This document shows positions 7,385 to 17,188 of a stretch of 32,627 nt of DNA, piece after piece. Below the pieces are notes generated by a model. That model saw nothing but the letters and a program-made list of their open reading frames with translations. It was not told the DNA's origin and ran no database searches. The stretch is from Thermoanaerobaculia bacterium (GTDB lineage Bacteria > Acidobacteriota > Thermoanaerobaculia > Gp7-AA8). Every line of letters starts with the position of its first letter. Position 1 is the stretch's first letter. The position numbers were made by a program, and so were the translations under genes. The DNA lies in NCBI GenBank assembly GCA_016650215.1, contig JAENWF010000132.1, positions 1-32,627 on the forward strand, read 5' to 3'.

Positions 7385-8200
7385 ATGCCGATCCGTCAAC
7401 CTGCCGTTGCCGGCGCGTTTTATGAGGCGAATCCTGCGCGGTTGCGCGCGCAGGTCGACGCCTGCTTTGCGGAGAATCCGGCGGCGCCGGCAAAGGCGCG
7501 GCTGATCGCCGCGGTCGTTCCGCACGCGGGACTCATGTACAGCGGGCATGTTGCGGCCGCGCTTTACGCGCTCGCCGATCTCCCGCGCCGCCTGATCATC
7601 CTCTGTCCGAATCACACCGGTACCGGCCATTTTGCGGCAATCAATCGCGAGGGAGCGTGGCGGACCCCCCTGGGTGAGATGCCGATCGACACGGAGCTCG
7701 CGGACGCGCTGATGAGAAAGAGCGCCCTGCTGCTCGACGACGCGAAGGCGCACGCGCGCGAGCATTCGCTCGAGGTTCAGCTTCCATTCCTCCAGCGTCT
7801 CCGCGACGACTTCCGCTTCGTGCCGATCTGCCTCGGCGCGCCCCGCTATGCGATGTGTCTGGAGATTGGAAACGCGATCGCCGATGTGGTCGCGGAGAGC
7901 GGCGAGCCAGTCGCGATTTTTGCCAGCTCCGATCTCAATCACTACGAGGATCAGGAGACGACGCTTCGCAAGGACCAGCTCGCGATCGATCGCGTGGTCG
8001 CGCTCGACCCTGAAGGACTCTGGCGCGTTGTCGAGGAACACGACATCTCGATGTGCGGATACATCCCCACGACGACCATGCTGATCGCGGCGCGGAGGCT
8101 CGGCGCAACGAAAGCCCGGCTCATCAAGCACGCAACTTCCGGCGACATCAACCGCGACTACGGTCATGTAGTCGGATACGCGGCGATCGCTGTGGGATAG
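7385..8200 (+). CDS. MEMO1 family protein (AmmeMemoRadiSam system protein B)
   Basis: RQPAVAGAFYEANP, VPHAGLMYSGHVAA, CPNHTG, SSDLNHYE, SMCGYIPTTTML; family signature and candidate metal ligands. Confidence 0.93.
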   Translation: MPIRQPAVAGAFYEANPARLRAQVDACFAENPAAPAKARLIAAVVPHAGLMYSGHVAAALYALADLPRRLIILCPNHTGTGHFAAINREGAWRTPLGEMPIDTELADALMRKSALLLDDAKAHAREHSLEVQLPFLQRLRDDFRFVPICLGAPRYAMCLEIGNAIADVVAESGEPVAIFASSDLNHYEDQETTLRKDQLAIDRVVALDPEGLWRVVEEHDISMCGYIPTTTMLIAARRLGATKARLIKHATSGDINRDYGHVVGYAAIAVG

Positions 8201-10226: not shown

Positions 10227-12539
10227 ATGCCCTTTGCGGGACGACACATCGAGATTCGTGGCGTAGTCCAGGGTGTCGGATTTCGTCCGTTCGTCCATCA
10301 GGCGGCACACCGCGACGGGATCACTGGCCGCGTGCGCAACGACTCGACTGGTGTTGTTATCGACGCATTTGGCGAAACGATGGCGCTGGAGAAATTCACC
10401 GGAAGGCTCGCGACCGACGCGCCTCCGGCGGCGCGAATCGCCGATCTCGCATGGCAGCCGATTCCGTTCGAGATCGTCACTGGGTTCGAGATCACGGCAA
10501 GCGCGCAGACTTCCGAACGAAACATTTCGATTCCTCCCGACCTCGCGATTTGTGACGACTGTCTGCGCGAAGTTCTCGATCCGGCCGACCGCCGTTATCT
10601 CTACCCCTTCACGAACTGCACGAACTGCGGACCGCGTTACTCGATCGTCCGCGACATCCCTTACGACCGCGCGCAGACGACGATGGCGAGGTTCGAAATG
10701 TGCGGGCGATGCCAGGCGGAGTACGACGATCCGCTCAATCGCCGCTTTCACGCACAACCGAATGCGTGTCCCGATTGCGGGCCGCGTCTGACCGCGCTCG
10801 ATCCCAGCGGGATTGAGGTTCGCACCAGTTTTGCGATCGGGTTTGCCGCGCGCGCGCTGAAGGCGCAACTGATCGTCGCGTTGAAAGGCATCGGCGGATT
10901 TCACCTCGCGTGCGATGCGACTTCCGCGATTGCGGTCCGGCGCCTGCGCGAACGGAAACGTCGCGATGCGAAGCCGCTCGCCGTGATGGTGCGCGATCTC
11001 GCCGCAGCTGAGGCGATTGCGGCGCTGACGAATGACGAGAAAAAACTCCTCGCTTCGGTGGAGCGGCCCATCGTCCTTGCCGCGCGCAGGGGAGAGCTGA
11101 TCGCTCCCGCGGTCTCCGGAGACAACCCCCTGATCGGAATCATGCTCGCGTACACGCCGCTGCATCACATTCTCCTCGCCGAGGCAGGAACGCCGCTCGT
11201 GATGACCTCGGGAAACCTTTCCGAAGAGCCGATGGCGTACGAGAACGCGCAGGCGATCGCTCAGCTCGGTGAAGTCGCCGATCTCTTCCTGGTGCACGAC
11301 CGCGAGATCGAAACGCGGGTCGATGATTCTGTTGCGCGGGTGATCGCGGGCACACCGACGCTGCTGCGCCGCGGACGCGGATACGTTCCGGGTGGCGTGC
11401 GCGTCACGACTCCGTTCGACGTTCCGGTACTCGCATGCGGTGCTCATCTGAAGAACGCCGTCTGCATCGGCACTGGACGCAACGCATTCCTCGGCCCGCA
11501 CGTCGGCGATCTCGAGACAGTCGCGTCGCTTCGCGCGTTCGAGGCGTCGATCGAGCAGATGAAACGCTTCATCGGTGTCGAGCCAACGATCATCGCGCAC
11601 GATCTTCACCCCGACTATCTCTCGACGCGATACGCGGAGGCGCAGTCAGGCGTCACGACGATCGCCGTGCAGCACCATCATGCGCACATCGTCAGTGCGA
11701 TGGCGGAGCATCACCTGAGCGGGCCGGTCATCGGCTTCGCGTATGACGGCGCCGGCTTCGGCACTGACGGGACGTCGTGGGGCGGCGAGGTGCTGATCGT
11801 GGACGAGCGCAGATTTACGCGCGCGGCGACGTTTCGGCCGATCGCGCTCGCCGGCGGCGACCAGGCGATCCGGCAGGTGTGGCGGATCGCGCTCGCGCTT
11901 CTCGATGATGCGTTCGAGGGCGAGGCGCCAGTGGACGCGCTTCCCCTTTTCGGCGAGGTGCCGCGTCGCGACATCGAGTCGGTTCGCCGCATGATCCAGC
12001 GGGGCGTGAACACGCATCGCGCGCGCGGAGTTGGGCGCTACTTCGATGCGCTCGGCTCGATCGGACTCGGACGCCCCGACTCCCGTTACGAGGGGGAAGT
12101 CGCGTTCCTCTGGAACATGATTGCGGATCCCGGCGAGAAGGGACTCTACCCGGTCGTGATCCGCGAAGGGGCCGGGCCGTGGGAGATCGATCCGCGTACG
12201 CTCGTGAGAGCCGCGGTGCTCGAGTTCATCGCGGGACGCGGCGCAGCAACCGTCTCTGCGCGTTTCCACAACACGATCGCGCGCGCGACGGTCGAGATCG
12301 CGCAGTCGCTCCTGACCATTCACGGAGAGATGCCGGTCATTCTGAGCGGGGGCTGCTTCCAGAACGCGCGCCTCACCGAGTCGGTCATCGCCGGACTCGC
12401 GCCGTTCACACGCGTCTACACCAACCATCAGATCCCGCCGGGTGACGGCGGAATCGCACTCGGCCAGGCTGTGATCGCGAACGCAATCGCGCGCGCCGGA
12501 GCCGTCGAAGATCGAAAAGAGGTCGCGCTATGTGTCTAG
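10227..12539 (+). CDS. hypF: Carbamoyltransferase HypF, [NiFe]-hydrogenase cyanide ligand synthesis
   Basis: Acylphosphatase domain VQGVGFRPFVHQAA; two CX2C zinc-finger pairs (CDDCLREV..CTNCGPRYS; CGRCQAEY..CPDCGPRL); YrdC-like domain; VQHHHAHIVSAMAEHHL; LSGGCFQNARLTE. Confidence 0.97.
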   Translation: MPFAGRHIEIRGVVQGVGFRPFVHQAAHRDGITGRVRNDSTGVVIDAFGETMALEKFTGRLATDAPPAARIADLAWQPIPFEIVTGFEITASAQTSERNISIPPDLAICDDCLREVLDPADRRYLYPFTNCTNCGPRYSIVRDIPYDRAQTTMARFEMCGRCQAEYDDPLNRRFHAQPNACPDCGPRLTALDPSGIEVRTSFAIGFAARALKAQLIVALKGIGGFHLACDATSAIAVRRLRERKRRDAKPLAVMVRDLAAAEAIAALTNDEKKLLASVERPIVLAARRGELIAPAVSGDNPLIGIMLAYTPLHHILLAEAGTPLVMTSGNLSEEPMAYENAQAIAQLGEVADLFLVHDREIETRVDDSVARVIAGTPTLLRRGRGYVPGGVRVTTPFDVPVLACGAHLKNAVCIGTGRNAFLGPHVGDLETVASLRAFEASIEQMKRFIGVEPTIIAHDLHPDYLSTRYAEAQSGVTTIAVQHHHAHIVSAMAEHHLSGPVIGFAYDGAGFGTDGTSWGGEVLIVDERRFTRAATFRPIALAGGDQAIRQVWRIALALLDDAFEGEAPVDALPLFGEVPRRDIESVRRMIQRGVNTHRARGVGRYFDALGSIGLGRPDSRYEGEVAFLWNMIADPGEKGLYPVVIREGAGPWEIDPRTLVRAAVLEFIAGRGAATVSARFHNTIARATVEIAQSLLTIHGEMPVILSGGCFQNARLTESVIAGLAPFTRVYTNHQIPPGDGGIALGQAVIANAIARAGAVEDRKEVALCV

Positions 12540-12811
12540 GAGTTCCGGGACGTGTCATCGAGATCAACGGAAGCATGGCAACGGTCGATTTCTGGGGCGT
12601 GAGGCGTCAGGTCAACCTCGACATCGTCGATGAGCCGGTCAAGCCGGGCGACTACATCCTCAACCACGTCGGCTTCGCGATTCGCAGAATCCCCGAGGAG
12701 TCGATTGCGGAGACGCTGTCGCTCTACGAGACGCTGATGAAGGAAGCGGAAGACGACGCGATGGCCGCCGACGTGCGCGCCGAGATCGCGGGAGCGGGAA
12801 GAGTGTCATGA
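12530..12811 (+). CDS. hypC: Hydrogenase maturation chaperone HypC/HybG/HupF
   Basis: N-terminal MCLGVPGRVIEI with essential Cys2; overlaps the hypF 3' end by 10 nt. Confidence 0.95.
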   Translation: MCLGVPGRVIEINGSMATVDFWGVRRQVNLDIVDEPVKPGDYILNHVGFAIRRIPEESIAETLSLYETLMKEAEDDAMAADVRAEIAGAGRVS

Positions 12812-13938
12812 ACGGGGCACGGCTGAAGTTTCGCGATCCAGAGCTTGCAAAGTCACTCGCCGCGACGCTCGCGAAGCTTGTCGACGACATCGGGCGGCCT
12901 GTTGCGGTCATGCACGTCTGCGGAAGCCACGAGCAGGCGATTGCGAAGTTCGGTCTCCGCTCGATGTTTCCGAAGAATCTCAACGTGATCATGGGACCCG
13001 GCTGCCCGGTCTGCGTGACCGACGTGCCGGAGGTCGACGAAGGCGTGGTGCTCGCCGGAAACGGCGTCCGCATCGCGACGTACGGCGACATGCTGAGAGT
13101 TCCCGGGACAGTGCGCTCGCTTTCCGATGCGCAGGCGCTCGGTGCGAAGATCGACGTCGTCTACAGTCCCGCTCAGGCGGTCGACATCGCGCGGAAGACC
13201 GACGAAGACATCGTCTTCTTCGCGACCGGCTTCGAAACGACGGCGGTCGCGACGGCGGCGGTCATCGTGAGCGATCCGCCGAAGAACTTCTCCGTGCTCT
13301 CGGCACACAAGTACATTCCGCCGGCCATGGAGATCGTTGCGGAGATGCCCGAGTCGCGCGTTGAGGGATTTCTCGCGGCAGGTCATGCGGCGACGATCAC
13401 CGGCACGGCCATATTCGAACCGTTCGTCGAGCGGCACAAGTTGCCTGTCGTCGTCGCCGGCTTCGAGCCGCTCGACATCCTCGCAGGACTCGTCGAGTTG
13501 GTGACGCTGATCCGCAACGGCACACCGCGTGTGGTGAATGCGTTCCCGCGCTGCGTGTCGCGCGAAGGGAACCTGAACGCGCAGGAGCTTCTGTGGCGCG
13601 TCTTCCGTCCGATCGGCGGACGCTGGCGCGGCATTGCGCACGTCCCGAACGGCAATCTACGGCTACGCGACGAGTACGCGCACGTCGATGCGCGCCGCAA
13701 GTACGAGATCAATGTCACGGCGCTGTGGGACTTCTCGCCGCCTCAACTCGCGAATCAGTGCATCTGCGGCGACATCATGGCGGGAATCCGTAACCCGATC
13801 GACTGCCGTCTCTTCAACAAGGAATGCGTGCCGGAGACGCCGGTCGGCGCGTGCATGGTGTCGAACGAAGGAACGTGCAAGATCTGGCACCTGTACGGCG
13901 GCGTTCCCGATCTTTCGGCACTGGAGGTTGCGTCATGA
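12808..13938 (+). CDS. hypD: Hydrogenase maturation factor HypD
   Basis: HVCGSHEQAIAKFGLRSMFP, GPGCPVCVTDVPEVDEG, FFATGFETTAVATAA, CVPETPVGACMVSNEGTC; overlaps the hypC stop. Confidence 0.97.
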   Translation: MNGARLKFRDPELAKSLAATLAKLVDDIGRPVAVMHVCGSHEQAIAKFGLRSMFPKNLNVIMGPGCPVCVTDVPEVDEGVVLAGNGVRIATYGDMLRVPGTVRSLSDAQALGAKIDVVYSPAQAVDIARKTDEDIVFFATGFETTAVATAAVIVSDPPKNFSVLSAHKYIPPAMEIVAEMPESRVEGFLAAGHAATITGTAIFEPFVERHKLPVVVAGFEPLDILAGLVELVTLIRNGTPRVVNAFPRCVSREGNLNAQELLWRVFRPIGGRWRGIAHVPNGNLRLRDEYAHVDARRKYEINVTALWDFSPPQLANQCICGDIMAGIRNPIDCRLFNKECVPETPVGACMVSNEGTCKIWHLYGGVPDLSALEVAS

Positions 13939-14909
13939 CGGTTGCCGCAATGCCGCTGAGCAACAGCGGACGTGTCTCGCTCAAGCAGGGTGGTGGTGGC
14001 CGCGCGATGCGCGCGCTCATCGAGCGTCTCTTCATCCGCGATTTTGCAGCGATGCCGTTCGACGGCGTCGGCCTCGCCGCGATGGACGACGGCGCGGCGA
14101 TTCCAATGGGGGACGAATGGCTCGTCATCACCACAGACTCGCATGTCATCCACCCGATCTTCTTTCCCGGCGGCGACATCGGCCGCATCTCCATCTGCGG
14201 CACCGTGAACGATCTGGCAATGATGGGTGCGACGCGGATCCTCGGCCTCACCTGTGGCGTCATTCTCGAAGAGGGATTTCCGCTCGAACAGCTCGAGGCG
14301 ATTCAGCGCTCGATCGTCGCGACATGCCTCGAGGCAGGAACGGTCATCGTCACCGGCGACACGAAGGTGATGGGAAGCGGCGAGATCGACGGCATCGCGA
14401 TCAACACGACCGGCATCGCGATGACGAAGCGCGTCATTCGCGACAATGCGCTCCGCGTGGGCGACCGGATCATCGTTACCGGGACGATCGGCGATCATGG
14501 CCTCGCGGTCATGGCCGCGCGGCATGGGCTGGAGCTGGAAGGCGATCTGAAGTCGGACGTCGCGCCGCTGAACTCGCTCATCGCTCTCGCAACGGCCGCA
14601 ATGCCCGAGGCGATCACCGCGATGAAGGATCCGACGCGAGGAGGTCTCGCGAGCGCGCTCCATGAGATGGCTTCGAAGAGCAACGTCGGCGTCATGTTGC
14701 GCGAGGCGAGCGTGCCTGTGACCGAAGCGGTACGCGCGGCCGGCGAAATTCTCGGCATTGACCCGCTGCATGTCGCGAACGAAGGGAAGGCCGTGATGGG
14801 CGTTCGTCCCGAAGACGCCGACCGCATGCTCGCGATTCTACGCAGCCATCCGCTCGGCCGCGACGCCGCCATCATTGGGACTGCATCACGGAGAGGCCGG
14901 GCTCATTGA
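13935..14909 (+). CDS. hypE: Hydrogenase maturation factor HypE; ORF ends early because of an apparent -1 frameshift, full gene probably to 14980
   Basis: ATG at 13935 overlaps the hypD stop; GGGGRAMRALIERLFIRDF; DDGAAI; GGDIGRISICGTVNDLAMMGA; KDPTRGGLASALHEMA. The expected C-terminal tail lies in another frame (next feature). Confidence 0.93.
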   Translation: MTVAAMPLSNSGRVSLKQGGGGRAMRALIERLFIRDFAAMPFDGVGLAAMDDGAAIPMGDEWLVITTDSHVIHPIFFPGGDIGRISICGTVNDLAMMGATRILGLTCGVILEEGFPLEQLEAIQRSIVATCLEAGTVIVTGDTKVMGSGEIDGIAINTTGIAMTKRVIRDNALRVGDRIIVTGTIGDHGLAVMAARHGLELEGDLKSDVAPLNSLIALATAAMPEAITAMKDPTRGGLASALHEMASKSNVGVMLREASVPVTEAVRAAGEILGIDPLHVANEGKAVMGVRPEDADRMLAILRSHPLGRDAAIIGTASRRGRAH

Positions 14910-14980
14910 TTCTCGACACAGGATTCGGAAAGAGGTTGCTGGCGGAGCCGGAAGGCGAGCCGCTGCCGCGCATATGCTGA
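14885..14980 (+). other. hypE: Out-of-frame HypE C-terminal tail ITERPGSLILDTGFGKRLLAEPEGEPLPRIC*
   Basis: Frame shifted relative to the upstream ORF (14885 mod 3 = 2, hypE frame = 0). It ends in PRIC, the conserved HypE C-terminus carrying the thiocarboxamide/thiocyanate Cys. Confidence 0.9.
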
Positions 14981-15705
14981 AAGAGTCCGCCACAGCCCGC
15001 GTCGCCGTCCTCTGCTCGAAGCGGGCTCCAGGGCTCGATGAGCTTTTGAGCCATCCGCAGCGCGGCAAGCTGTTCGAGATCAGCTGCGTCATCACGACCG
15101 AGAGCCATCTCATCGGTCAGGAGCGGATCGAAGCAGCGGGCGTTCCCGTGATGACCCACTCCATCCGACACTTCTTCGAGGAGCGCGGTGCACGGCTCAG
15201 CGATCGGAAGGTGCGCGCCGACTACGATGCGGTGACGGCTGCGGCGCTGCGGGTGATCGGCGTCGATACCGTGCTGCTTCTCGGCTACCTCTATGTGCTG
15301 ACTTCTCCGATGCTGGACATGTTTCCGGATCGGATTCTCAACATCCACGACAGCGATCTGACTCTCATTCGGCCGGATGGCAGTCGGCGCTACACAGGCC
15401 TTCATTCGACGCGCGACGCCATTCTCGCCGGCGAGACCGAGACGCGCAGTGCAGTCCATTTCGTGACATCGACGCTCGACGGCGGTCCGGTTCTGATGCT
15501 CAGCGATGCGTATCCGATCGCTCCCTTTGCGACCGAGGCTGCGCTGAGTGCTTCGATCGACATCGTGCGCGCGTACTCGTATGCGCATCGCGAGTGGATG
15601 ATGCGCAATGAGTGGGGATCTCTTGCAGCGCGATCTCTCGAGTACCTCGCGGCTGGAATCGTCAGCGTCGAGCGGAAAGACGACCGGGAGTTGGTGAGCG
15701 TATGA
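14974..15705 (+). CDS. PurN-like formyltransferase; candidate N-terminal half of a split HypX
   Basis: ATG at 14974 overlaps the restored hypE stop (atATGCTGA). NIHDSDLTLI (Asn-x-His), YTGLHSTRDAI, VHFVTSTLDGGPVL (Asp) match the formyl-THF-dependent formyltransferase active-site pattern. Confidence 0.8.
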   Translation: MLKESATARVAVLCSKRAPGLDELLSHPQRGKLFEISCVITTESHLIGQERIEAAGVPVMTHSIRHFFEERGARLSDRKVRADYDAVTAAALRVIGVDTVLLLGYLYVLTSPMLDMFPDRILNIHDSDLTLIRPDGSRRYTGLHSTRDAILAGETETRSAVHFVTSTLDGGPVLMLSDAYPIAPFATEAALSASIDIVRAYSYAHREWMMRNEWGSLAARSLEYLAAGIVSVERKDDRELVSV

Positions 15706-16547
15706 GCAACATTCAGATGGAAAGGGACGGCGGAGTCGGTCTCATCACGATCGATCGTAAGGAGCGTTTCAACTCTCTCGACGTTGAAACGGCACGCGAT
15801 CTCCGCAAGGCGGGACTGCAGTTCGCGCGCGATGCATCGGTTCGCGCGGTCGTCCTGCGCGGCGCCGGCGGCATCTTCTGCAGCGGCGCCGACCTGAAGT
15901 ACATACGGGCTGGCGGCGATGCACGAGATCTCGGCTACCTGCAGCCCGAGCGCGGCGCCGTTGCTCAGGGCGCTGATCCCGCTTTCGGTTCGATTTTCAA
16001 ACAGATCCTCGAGTACATTCACAGCACCATCTCCGAGATCCGCCGCGCAGCGAAGCCGTTCATCGCCGCCGTCGACGGGGTCGCCGCAGCCGGGGGATTC
16101 GGCCTTGCAATGTCGTGCGATCTCGTCTTCGCGTCGGAGCGCGCATCGTTCGAGTGGGCGTATTCGAAGACGGGACTCACCGGCGCGGAAAGCTCCACGT
16201 TCTTCCTTCCGCGTCTTCTGGGGTTTCGCCGCGCGATGGACCTGCTGCTGCTGAATCCGCGGCTCGATGCCCGGCGCGCGTACGAGATGGGGCTCGTCAG
16301 CGGTGTCTTTCCGACTGATGTCTTCGATGCTGAAGTGATGGCCGTCGCGCGAAAGCTCGCGGCGGGACCGACCGAAGCCCTCGGAATTGCGAAGCAACTG
16401 ATGAACCAGGCGGCCGGCATGGATCGGCTCGACTATCACCTCGATCGCGAACTCGAGAACCTGGCGCGTATCGCCGATGGCAGCAACTTCGCCGAAGGCC
16501 TTGCAGCGTTCTTCGAGAAGCGCCCACCTGAGTTCGCGGAAAGGTAG
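15702..16547 (+). CDS. Crotonase/enoyl-CoA hydratase-isomerase superfamily protein; candidate C-terminal half of a split HypX
   Basis: MSNIQMERDGGVGLITIDRKERFNSLD; FCSGADLKYIR; IAAVDGVAAAGGFGLAMSCDLVFA; GLTGAESSTFFLPRLLG. ATGA overlap with the upstream gene. Confidence 0.88.
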   Translation: MSNIQMERDGGVGLITIDRKERFNSLDVETARDLRKAGLQFARDASVRAVVLRGAGGIFCSGADLKYIRAGGDARDLGYLQPERGAVAQGADPAFGSIFKQILEYIHSTISEIRRAAKPFIAAVDGVAAAGGFGLAMSCDLVFASERASFEWAYSKTGLTGAESSTFFLPRLLGFRRAMDLLLLNPRLDARRAYEMGLVSGVFPTDVFDAEVMAVARKLAAGPTEALGIAKQLMNQAAGMDRLDYHLDRELENLARIADGSNFAEGLAAFFEKRPPEFAER

Positions 16548-16558
16548 ACTCAAAAATC

Positions 16559-17188
16559 ATGGATGGATGGTTCTTCGCACTCGTGGTCGCGGCGGCGACG
16601 GTCGGCTCCCTTCATGCGCTCGCCCCCGATCATTGGGTTCCTTTCGCCGCGCTCGGGCGTGCGCGAGGATGGAGCGCCGGGCGGACTGCGCGGCTGACCT
16701 TCGTCTGCGGCCTGGGACACGTGAGTGTTTCAGCGGCGTTCGGGATCGCGGCGCTGATGATCGGGCTTCAGAGCGTCAAGGCGCTCGGCGCGACACTGCA
16801 AGGCAATGCCGCCCTCCTGCTGATTGGGTTCGGCCTCGCATACATGACGTGGGGTCTGTGGCGGCGGTTCTCGCAGCGGCTCGCGCACGAGCACCATCCG
16901 CCCGGAGCTGGTCTCACGGAATGGTCGCTCTTTCTCTTCTTCTGCGCTGATCCTTGTGTCGCGGTGATCCCGATGATCATCGCCGCGTCGTCGCATGGCT
17001 GGGGCGCAGTCGCCGCGGTCATCGCCGTCTACGAGATCTCGATGTTCGTGACGATGCTGACTCTTGTGACGACGTCCCTCGCAGGAGTGCAGAAGCTGAA
17101 GTTTCATTGGCTCGATCACTACGGCGATGTCGTCGCCGGTGCGACGATCGTGATCCTCGGTGTGGTCGTGACGCTCCTCGGCGTGTAA
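16559..17188 (+). CDS. Nickel/cobalt permease-like membrane protein (NicO/UreH/TauE-type), 209 aa
   Basis: GSLHALAPDHWVPFAALGR contains HX4DH (HALAPDH); GLGHVSVS; His patch AHEHH; multiple TM helices; 11 nt downstream of the crotonase in a hyp operon. Confidence 0.8.
   Translation: MDGWFFALVVAAATVGSLHALAPDHWVPFAALGRARGWSAGRTARLTFVCGLGHVSVSAAFGIAALMIGLQSVKALGATLQGNAALLLIGFGLAYMTWGLWRRFSQRLAHEHHPPGAGLTEWSLFLFFCADPCVAVIPMIIAASSHGWGAVAAVIAVYEISMFVTMLTLVTTSLAGVQKLKFHWLDHYGDVVAGATIVILGVVVTLLGV

Follow-up and report, generated by a model that had tools for sequence, protein, structure and literature searches.

The hyp operon of the window (the whole stretch of DNA analysed, 32,627 nucleotides) encodes a formyltransferase, FT, and a crotonase-fold protein, CRO, which together likely form a counterpart of HypX split over two proteins, in which CRO is the invariable member and FT the optional one. 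HypX, or HoxX (structure 6J0P from A. aeolicus; HoxX in C. necator), is a single-chain formyl-THF decarbonylase. The linkage of the genes, the conservation of their catalytic residues and the lack of a fused HypX in the genomes searched are shown by the sequences. The two reactions, the delivery of CO to HypCD and the existence of another source of formyl-CoA where FT is missing are inferred, and the activity of the proteins is untested.

In the window, hypF, hypC, hypD and hypE are followed by FT and CRO (Table 1), an arrangement that resembles C. necator, where HypX also follows hypE. The stop codon of FT (TGA, 15703-15705) and the start codon of CRO (ATG, 15702) share an ATGA overlap. The start codon of FT (ATG, 14974) in turn overlaps the last Cys codon and the stop codon of the conserved HypE C-terminus (CITERPG...PLPRIC, then stop), which lies at 14882-14980 in a different frame from the called hypE ORF; the latter ends at 14909 (...GTASRRGRAH, then stop). 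The earlier note, made without database searches, had described two ATGA-overlapping genes for a formyltransferase and a crotonase after hypE, and both the ORFs and the Pfam matches bear this out. It had also placed a nickel permease downstream. The gene at that position has no Pfam or NCBIfam match, and its homologues, which share 44-54% identity where they align, are present in many other hyp clusters, so the label suits the context and is possible, while remaining unproven.

Table 1. Features of the hyp operon, in coordinates of the window
Feature	Coordinates	Strand	Basis or remark
hypF	10227..12539	+	Pfam
hypC	12530..12811	+	Pfam PF01455, 1e-26
hypD	12808..13938	+	Pfam PF01924, 7e-126
hypE	13935..14980	+	One-base frameshift near 14880; called ORF stops at 14909
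FT, PurN-type formyltransferase, 243 aa	14974..15705	+	Pfam PF00551, AlphaFold model, residue conservation
FT codons Asn123/His125 (15340-15348) to Asp169 (15478-15480)	15340..15480	+	Alignment with E. coli PurN and relatives
CRO, crotonase-fold protein, 281 aa	15702..16547	+	Pfam PF00378, active site like that of the HypX C-domain; stop codon ends at 16547
CRO codons Tyr154 (16161-16163) to Glu163 (16188-16190), counterpart of HypX Tyr416/Glu426	16161..16190	+	Alignment with HypX sequences
Putative NicoT-like nickel permease	16559..17188	+	Homologues downstream of CRO/hypB in other hyp clusters

CRO matches the Pfam family ECH_1 (PF00378) with an E-value of 8.8e-49, and its top NCBIfam models score far below their cut-offs (167 bits for the PaaG-type isomerase family, with a cut-off of 345). 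Taken as a whole, its sequence is PaaG/ECH-like, with PaaG-type crotonases the closest: it shares about 30% identity over its length with PaaG-type isomerases and enoyl-CoA hydratases, as well as the oxyanion-hole loop FCSGADLK. In contrast to these enzymes, CRO has neither the hydratase glutamates nor the PDxG Asp, and carries Tyr154, Glu163 and an AAAGG stretch. The two catalytic glutamates of enoyl-CoA hydratase are Glu144 and Glu164 in the rat enzyme, and the corresponding columns of CRO hold Gly134 and Tyr154. TGAES stands in place of PDxGG, and the catalytic Asp of the PaaG type is absent.

We aligned the active sites of 37 CRO orthologues, 10 HypX proteins and 62 other crotonases. Tyr154 and Glu163 of CRO align with Tyr416 and Glu426 of A. 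aeolicus HypX, and the pair is present in every CRO (37/37) and every HypX (10/10). None of the 62 other crotonases has Glu at the position of Glu163; Tyr at the position of Tyr154 is not distinctive, as 13 of the 62 carry it. Three further rows with Glu, initially taken for other crotonases, proved to be the CRO of Thermoflexus itself. The CRO stretch EWAYSKTG-LTGAESSTFFLPR aligns with NPHYKNMGNLYGSEYWTYLLPQR of HypX, and without gaps with the actinobacterial HypX form NPHYRTMGLFGSEYWTYVLPRR. An A-G-G turn is common to CRO and HypX, whereas the others mostly have G-A-G or G-G-G. In the HypX structure paper, Tyr416 and Glu426 were proposed to act in decarbonylation, and mutation of either equivalent residue in C. 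necator, Tyr439 or Glu449, was reported to give a HypX-minus phenotype (PMC6802093). A predicted fold of CRO (pLDDT 60.9) was too poor to be used and was set aside.

FT matches the Pfam family Formyl_trans_N (PF00551, 2e-20), and its best NCBIfam model is that of PurN, the GAR transformylase (TIGR00639), with 75 bits against an equivalog cut-off of 150. An AlphaFold model (pLDDT 88.6) gave GAR transformylases and formyl-THF deformylases as its 32 top fold matches. By sequence, HMM and predicted fold, FT is of the PurN type and not of the Fmt type. It shares with PurN the fold, the Asn-x-His motif (within NIHDSDL) and the Asp of LDGGP (within TLDGGP), and Asn123, His125 and Asp169 are its candidate catalytic residues; His and Asp are also found in the formyltransferase part of HypX. 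Unlike PurN, FT has SKRAPG or a similar loop in place of the phosphate loop GNGSN, an insert after the His motif and a C-terminal helix with YAYAHREWM. Arg17, within the substituted loop, lies near the place of Arg9 in A. aeolicus HypX, a residue that touches CoA. A role of Arg17 as a CoA contact, proposed by analogy, is possible and no more than a hint, since C. necator HypX has no equivalent Arg. The N-domain of HypX is of the Fmt/FDH type and includes an OB subdomain, for which the 243 residues of FT leave no room. Because FT is of the PurN type, the formyltransferase half was recruited independently of HypX.

The Asn-x-His motif and the Asp are kept in all 19 hyp-linked FT sequences (about 16 of them distinct), whereas Asn and/or Asp is lost in all six copies found without an adjoining CRO. 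The latter include FT of genome G010, which has lost both residues and in which hypCDE, CRO and the hydrogenase are gone, and FT of G011, which sits in a similar scar and has lost the Asn. They also include a paralogue, FT2, present in G000, G008, G016 and G011, in which the catalytic Asn and Asp are lost; it overlaps a second hypC beside a radical SAM gene, and adjoins no crotonase. That the full set of Asn, His and Asp is kept solely in FT beside CRO is the best evidence that FT and CRO work together. The surroundings of FT2 (for example L012:1728-4108 on contig C71 of G000; also L194, L195 and L196) further contain a nitroreductase-like gene, as well as a very long one resembling pyruvate:ferredoxin oxidoreductase.

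The CRO orthologues stand at 61-77% identity, and the next crotonases at no more than 43%. They were found in 10 of 60 related genomes (71-77% identity, next crotonases 43%), each time within a hyp cluster. A species-level scan (one genome each), which sought two short conserved CRO peptides and could have missed very distant CRO-like proteins, returned 28 loci above 60% identity, two of them on the contigs of G003 and G016; the next hits fell to 37% identity or below. Each of the 28 belongs to a hyp operon. So do eight further loci from a phylum survey; the three sets of loci overlap partly. CRO thus resembles HypX in its location in hyp operons at every locus found. The hosts are Acidobacteriota, Myxococcota, Chloroflexota (including Thermoflexus) and single bins labelled otherwise. 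The usual order is hypE-CRO-hypA/B; in Chloroflexota it is hypD-CRO-hypE. Among 61 relatives, CRO was associated with a strong match to a [NiFe] large subunit (9/25 versus 2/36, p = 0.005), the two exceptions being bins of 87-88% completeness. In most CRO clusters the large subunit shares 40-50% identity with HoxG of C. necator, and the Chloroflexota type is more distant (<30%). The small subunits beside CRO at five loci (L061, L064, L070, L073 and L085) have DCAGN or DCCGN in place of the ECTCC of C. necator HoxK, with Asn replacing the expected proximal-cluster cysteine; those of L048 and L050 read ECTGC.

FT is closely tied to CRO in Acidobacteriota. Across 396 genomes of this phylum, CRO is present in 14, FT (excluding FT2) in 11, and the two are adjacent in 10 (Fisher p about 5e-16). 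Of the 14 CRO-bearing genomes, 10 thus have FT immediately before CRO, and FT is otherwise nearly absent. About 16 distinct hyp loci show this arrangement, which is therefore not due to chance. In one family (G095, G121 and G133) the order is hypD-FT-CRO-hypE, so that the pair has been kept together in two operon positions. FT is, however, optional, which sets the pair apart from HypX: more than half of the CRO operons lack it, including all those of Myxococcota and Chloroflexota and several of Acidobacteriota; CRO is without FT in G007, G008, G016, G033 and G215. No FT was found anywhere in the genomes of G007 and G033 at E≤1e-12, and a search of FT-less CRO loci for a conserved substitute found none. 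The gap of 0.8-1.2 kb before CRO in Thermoflexus was considered as the site of a formyltransferase and rejected, as it holds only small unrelated ORFs. By eye, ORFs in this hypD/CRO gap (L078:8900-9900, L079, L080 and L081) resemble a DUF4258/DUF2283 toxin-antitoxin pair.

Whereas HypX is one polypeptide, FT and CRO are two, and no fusion was seen in any relative examined. No fused HypX was found in the 35 CRO genomes, that of the window included, nor in 61 relatives at E≤1e-14, a set that contained no positive control. The N-domain of HypX, used as a query, matches a gene other than FT in CRO genomes. Frames of 581 and 585 aa around CRO in G030 and G045 were examined as possible FT-CRO fusions and discarded, their upstream part being an out-of-frame GC-rich ORF. 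An apparent split pair on a Mesorhizobium huakuii plasmid (L206) was likewise rejected: the annotation there divides in two a HypX relative with 43% identity to the C. necator protein, which is likely a broken HypX. No split form of HypX was described in the open-access literature searched; subscription papers were outside the search.

CRO and the C-domain of HypX may share ancestry or have converged. An HMM of this domain, run over 99 crotonases, ranked CRO first, with CRO making up all of the 27 top matches, and this advantage nearly vanished once the motif columns were removed. CRO is only about 30% identical to the HypX C-domain; outside the active site it is hardly nearer to HypX than other crotonases are, and it is itself much nearer to ordinary crotonases than to HypX. 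A joint clade of CRO and HypX has the better likelihood and is not rejected (p-AU 0.85, or 0.72 without the motif columns), and the HypX branch is very long. A first quick tree, in which HypX stood apart from CRO, was not relied on because the constrained test gave a better joint tree. Homology and convergence are both compatible with these results and we favour neither; the active sites agree in either case.

The proposal of the earlier note, a split HypX with its two activities on two proteins, is thus supported in amended form, with CRO constant, FT optional and the reactions still inferred. Its sequence observations held: the quoted motifs are all present (AAGGFGLAMSCD, FEWAYSKTGL and GLTGAESSTFFLPR in CRO), the formyltransferase is nearer to PurN than to the Fmt-like half of HypX, CRO lacks the canonical hydratase glutamates, and its Glu lines up with the HypX motif. 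Of its suggestion that HypX chemistry was assembled independently, the FT half held, and the CRO half may be homologous or convergent. The note had named three findings that would refute it. A fused hypX elsewhere in the genome was not found; a missing co-occurrence with hyp genes is ruled out by the hyp location of every CRO locus and the tie of FT to CRO; and as to a crotonase that groups firmly with beta-oxidation or phenylacetate enzymes and has their catalytic residues, CRO is of the PaaG/ECH type in overall sequence but lacks the residues.

In the mechanism we propose, FT would transfer the formyl group from N10-formyl-THF to coenzyme A, with Asn123, His125 and Asp169 as catalytic residues. 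The formyl-CoA so formed would be bound by CRO in the pocket typical of crotonases, where Tyr154 and Glu163 may serve as the base system that releases CO, and HypCD would take up this CO as a ligand for the [NiFe] cofactor. FT would then be a facultative, PurN-derived partner that supplies formyl-CoA to CRO, and where it is absent formyl-CoA may come from other metabolism. The route from N10-formyl-THF through formyl-CoA to CO, the binding of CoA and a role in oxic hydrogenase maturation are inferred for FT and CRO without biochemistry or genetics. Against the two-protein reading stand the FT-less operons without a substitute, the scant similarity of CRO and HypX outside the active site, the lack of a hydrogenase in the bin of the window and the absence of activity data. 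For the FT-less operons it is possible either that formyl-CoA is provided from elsewhere or that HypX does not fully describe the role of CRO.

Under the two-protein reading, a hyp-linked crotonase with the decarbonylation residues of HypX, in genomes without HypX, is a concrete candidate consisting of one or two small proteins, and the separation of the half-reactions opens formyl-CoA to study as a free intermediate. A bolder reading is that across several phyla the stand-alone crotonase is a constant factor of [NiFe]-cofactor maturation and acts as a free formyl-CoA decarbonylase; some lineages would pair it with a PurN-derived formyltransferase, and others would have no dedicated one. We would not yet back this version, which we judge a little more apt to be wrong than right. 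If true, it would mean that HypX chemistry was assembled more than once and that formyl-CoA from other sources can provide the CO of the cofactor.

A further alternative, which we hold as less likely than not, concerns the organism and not the role of the family. The operon in the window may be a decaying remnant, with FT and CRO surviving the loss of the hydrogenase and the breakage of hypE. No [NiFe] large subunit was found in the bin (3.19 Mb), hypE is frameshifted, and G010 and G011, which have no hydrogenase, retain only scars of the same locus. On the other hand, the bin is only 87.9% complete and in 247 contigs, hypA and hypB are present on another contig, FT and CRO are intact, and one missing base in hypE could be an assembly error. 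The window may represent an early stage of the loss seen in G010 and G011, or an incomplete bin combined with a sequence error; both are possible.

It is unlikely that CRO alone forms CO, from formyl-CoA of general metabolism, and that FT, added in particular lineages only, serves a different acceptor or purpose (e.g. on HypC or HypE). The CRO loci without FT listed above favour this view, as does FT2, beside a second hypC and away from any crotonase. It is opposed by the adjacency of the two genes, seen at about 16 distinct loci and in two places of the operon, and by the loss of Asn and/or Asp from FT where CRO is not adjacent. Very unlikely is that CRO is an ordinary acyl-CoA isomerase or hydratase, present in hyp operons for another reason, with FT unrelated. 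This view draws on the closeness of the whole CRO sequence to PaaG-type crotonases. It is opposed by the absence of the hydratase glutamates and of the PaaG-type Asp from CRO, by the invariant Tyr/Glu pair of HypX and by a linkage to hyp genes without exception.

The reduced loci come from sister genera and are scars of the locus of the window, lying beside glgA. That of G010 (L192:5324-9017) is reduced to hypF-FT-hypB, and that of G011 (L193:6847-8325) consists of a hypC scar, FT and a permease scar; neither genome has a hydrogenase. A Memo-like gene (AmmeMemoRadiSam protein B family; 7385-8197 of the window) and glgA lie directly upstream of the hyp genes in the window, and the same two genes flank both reduced loci.
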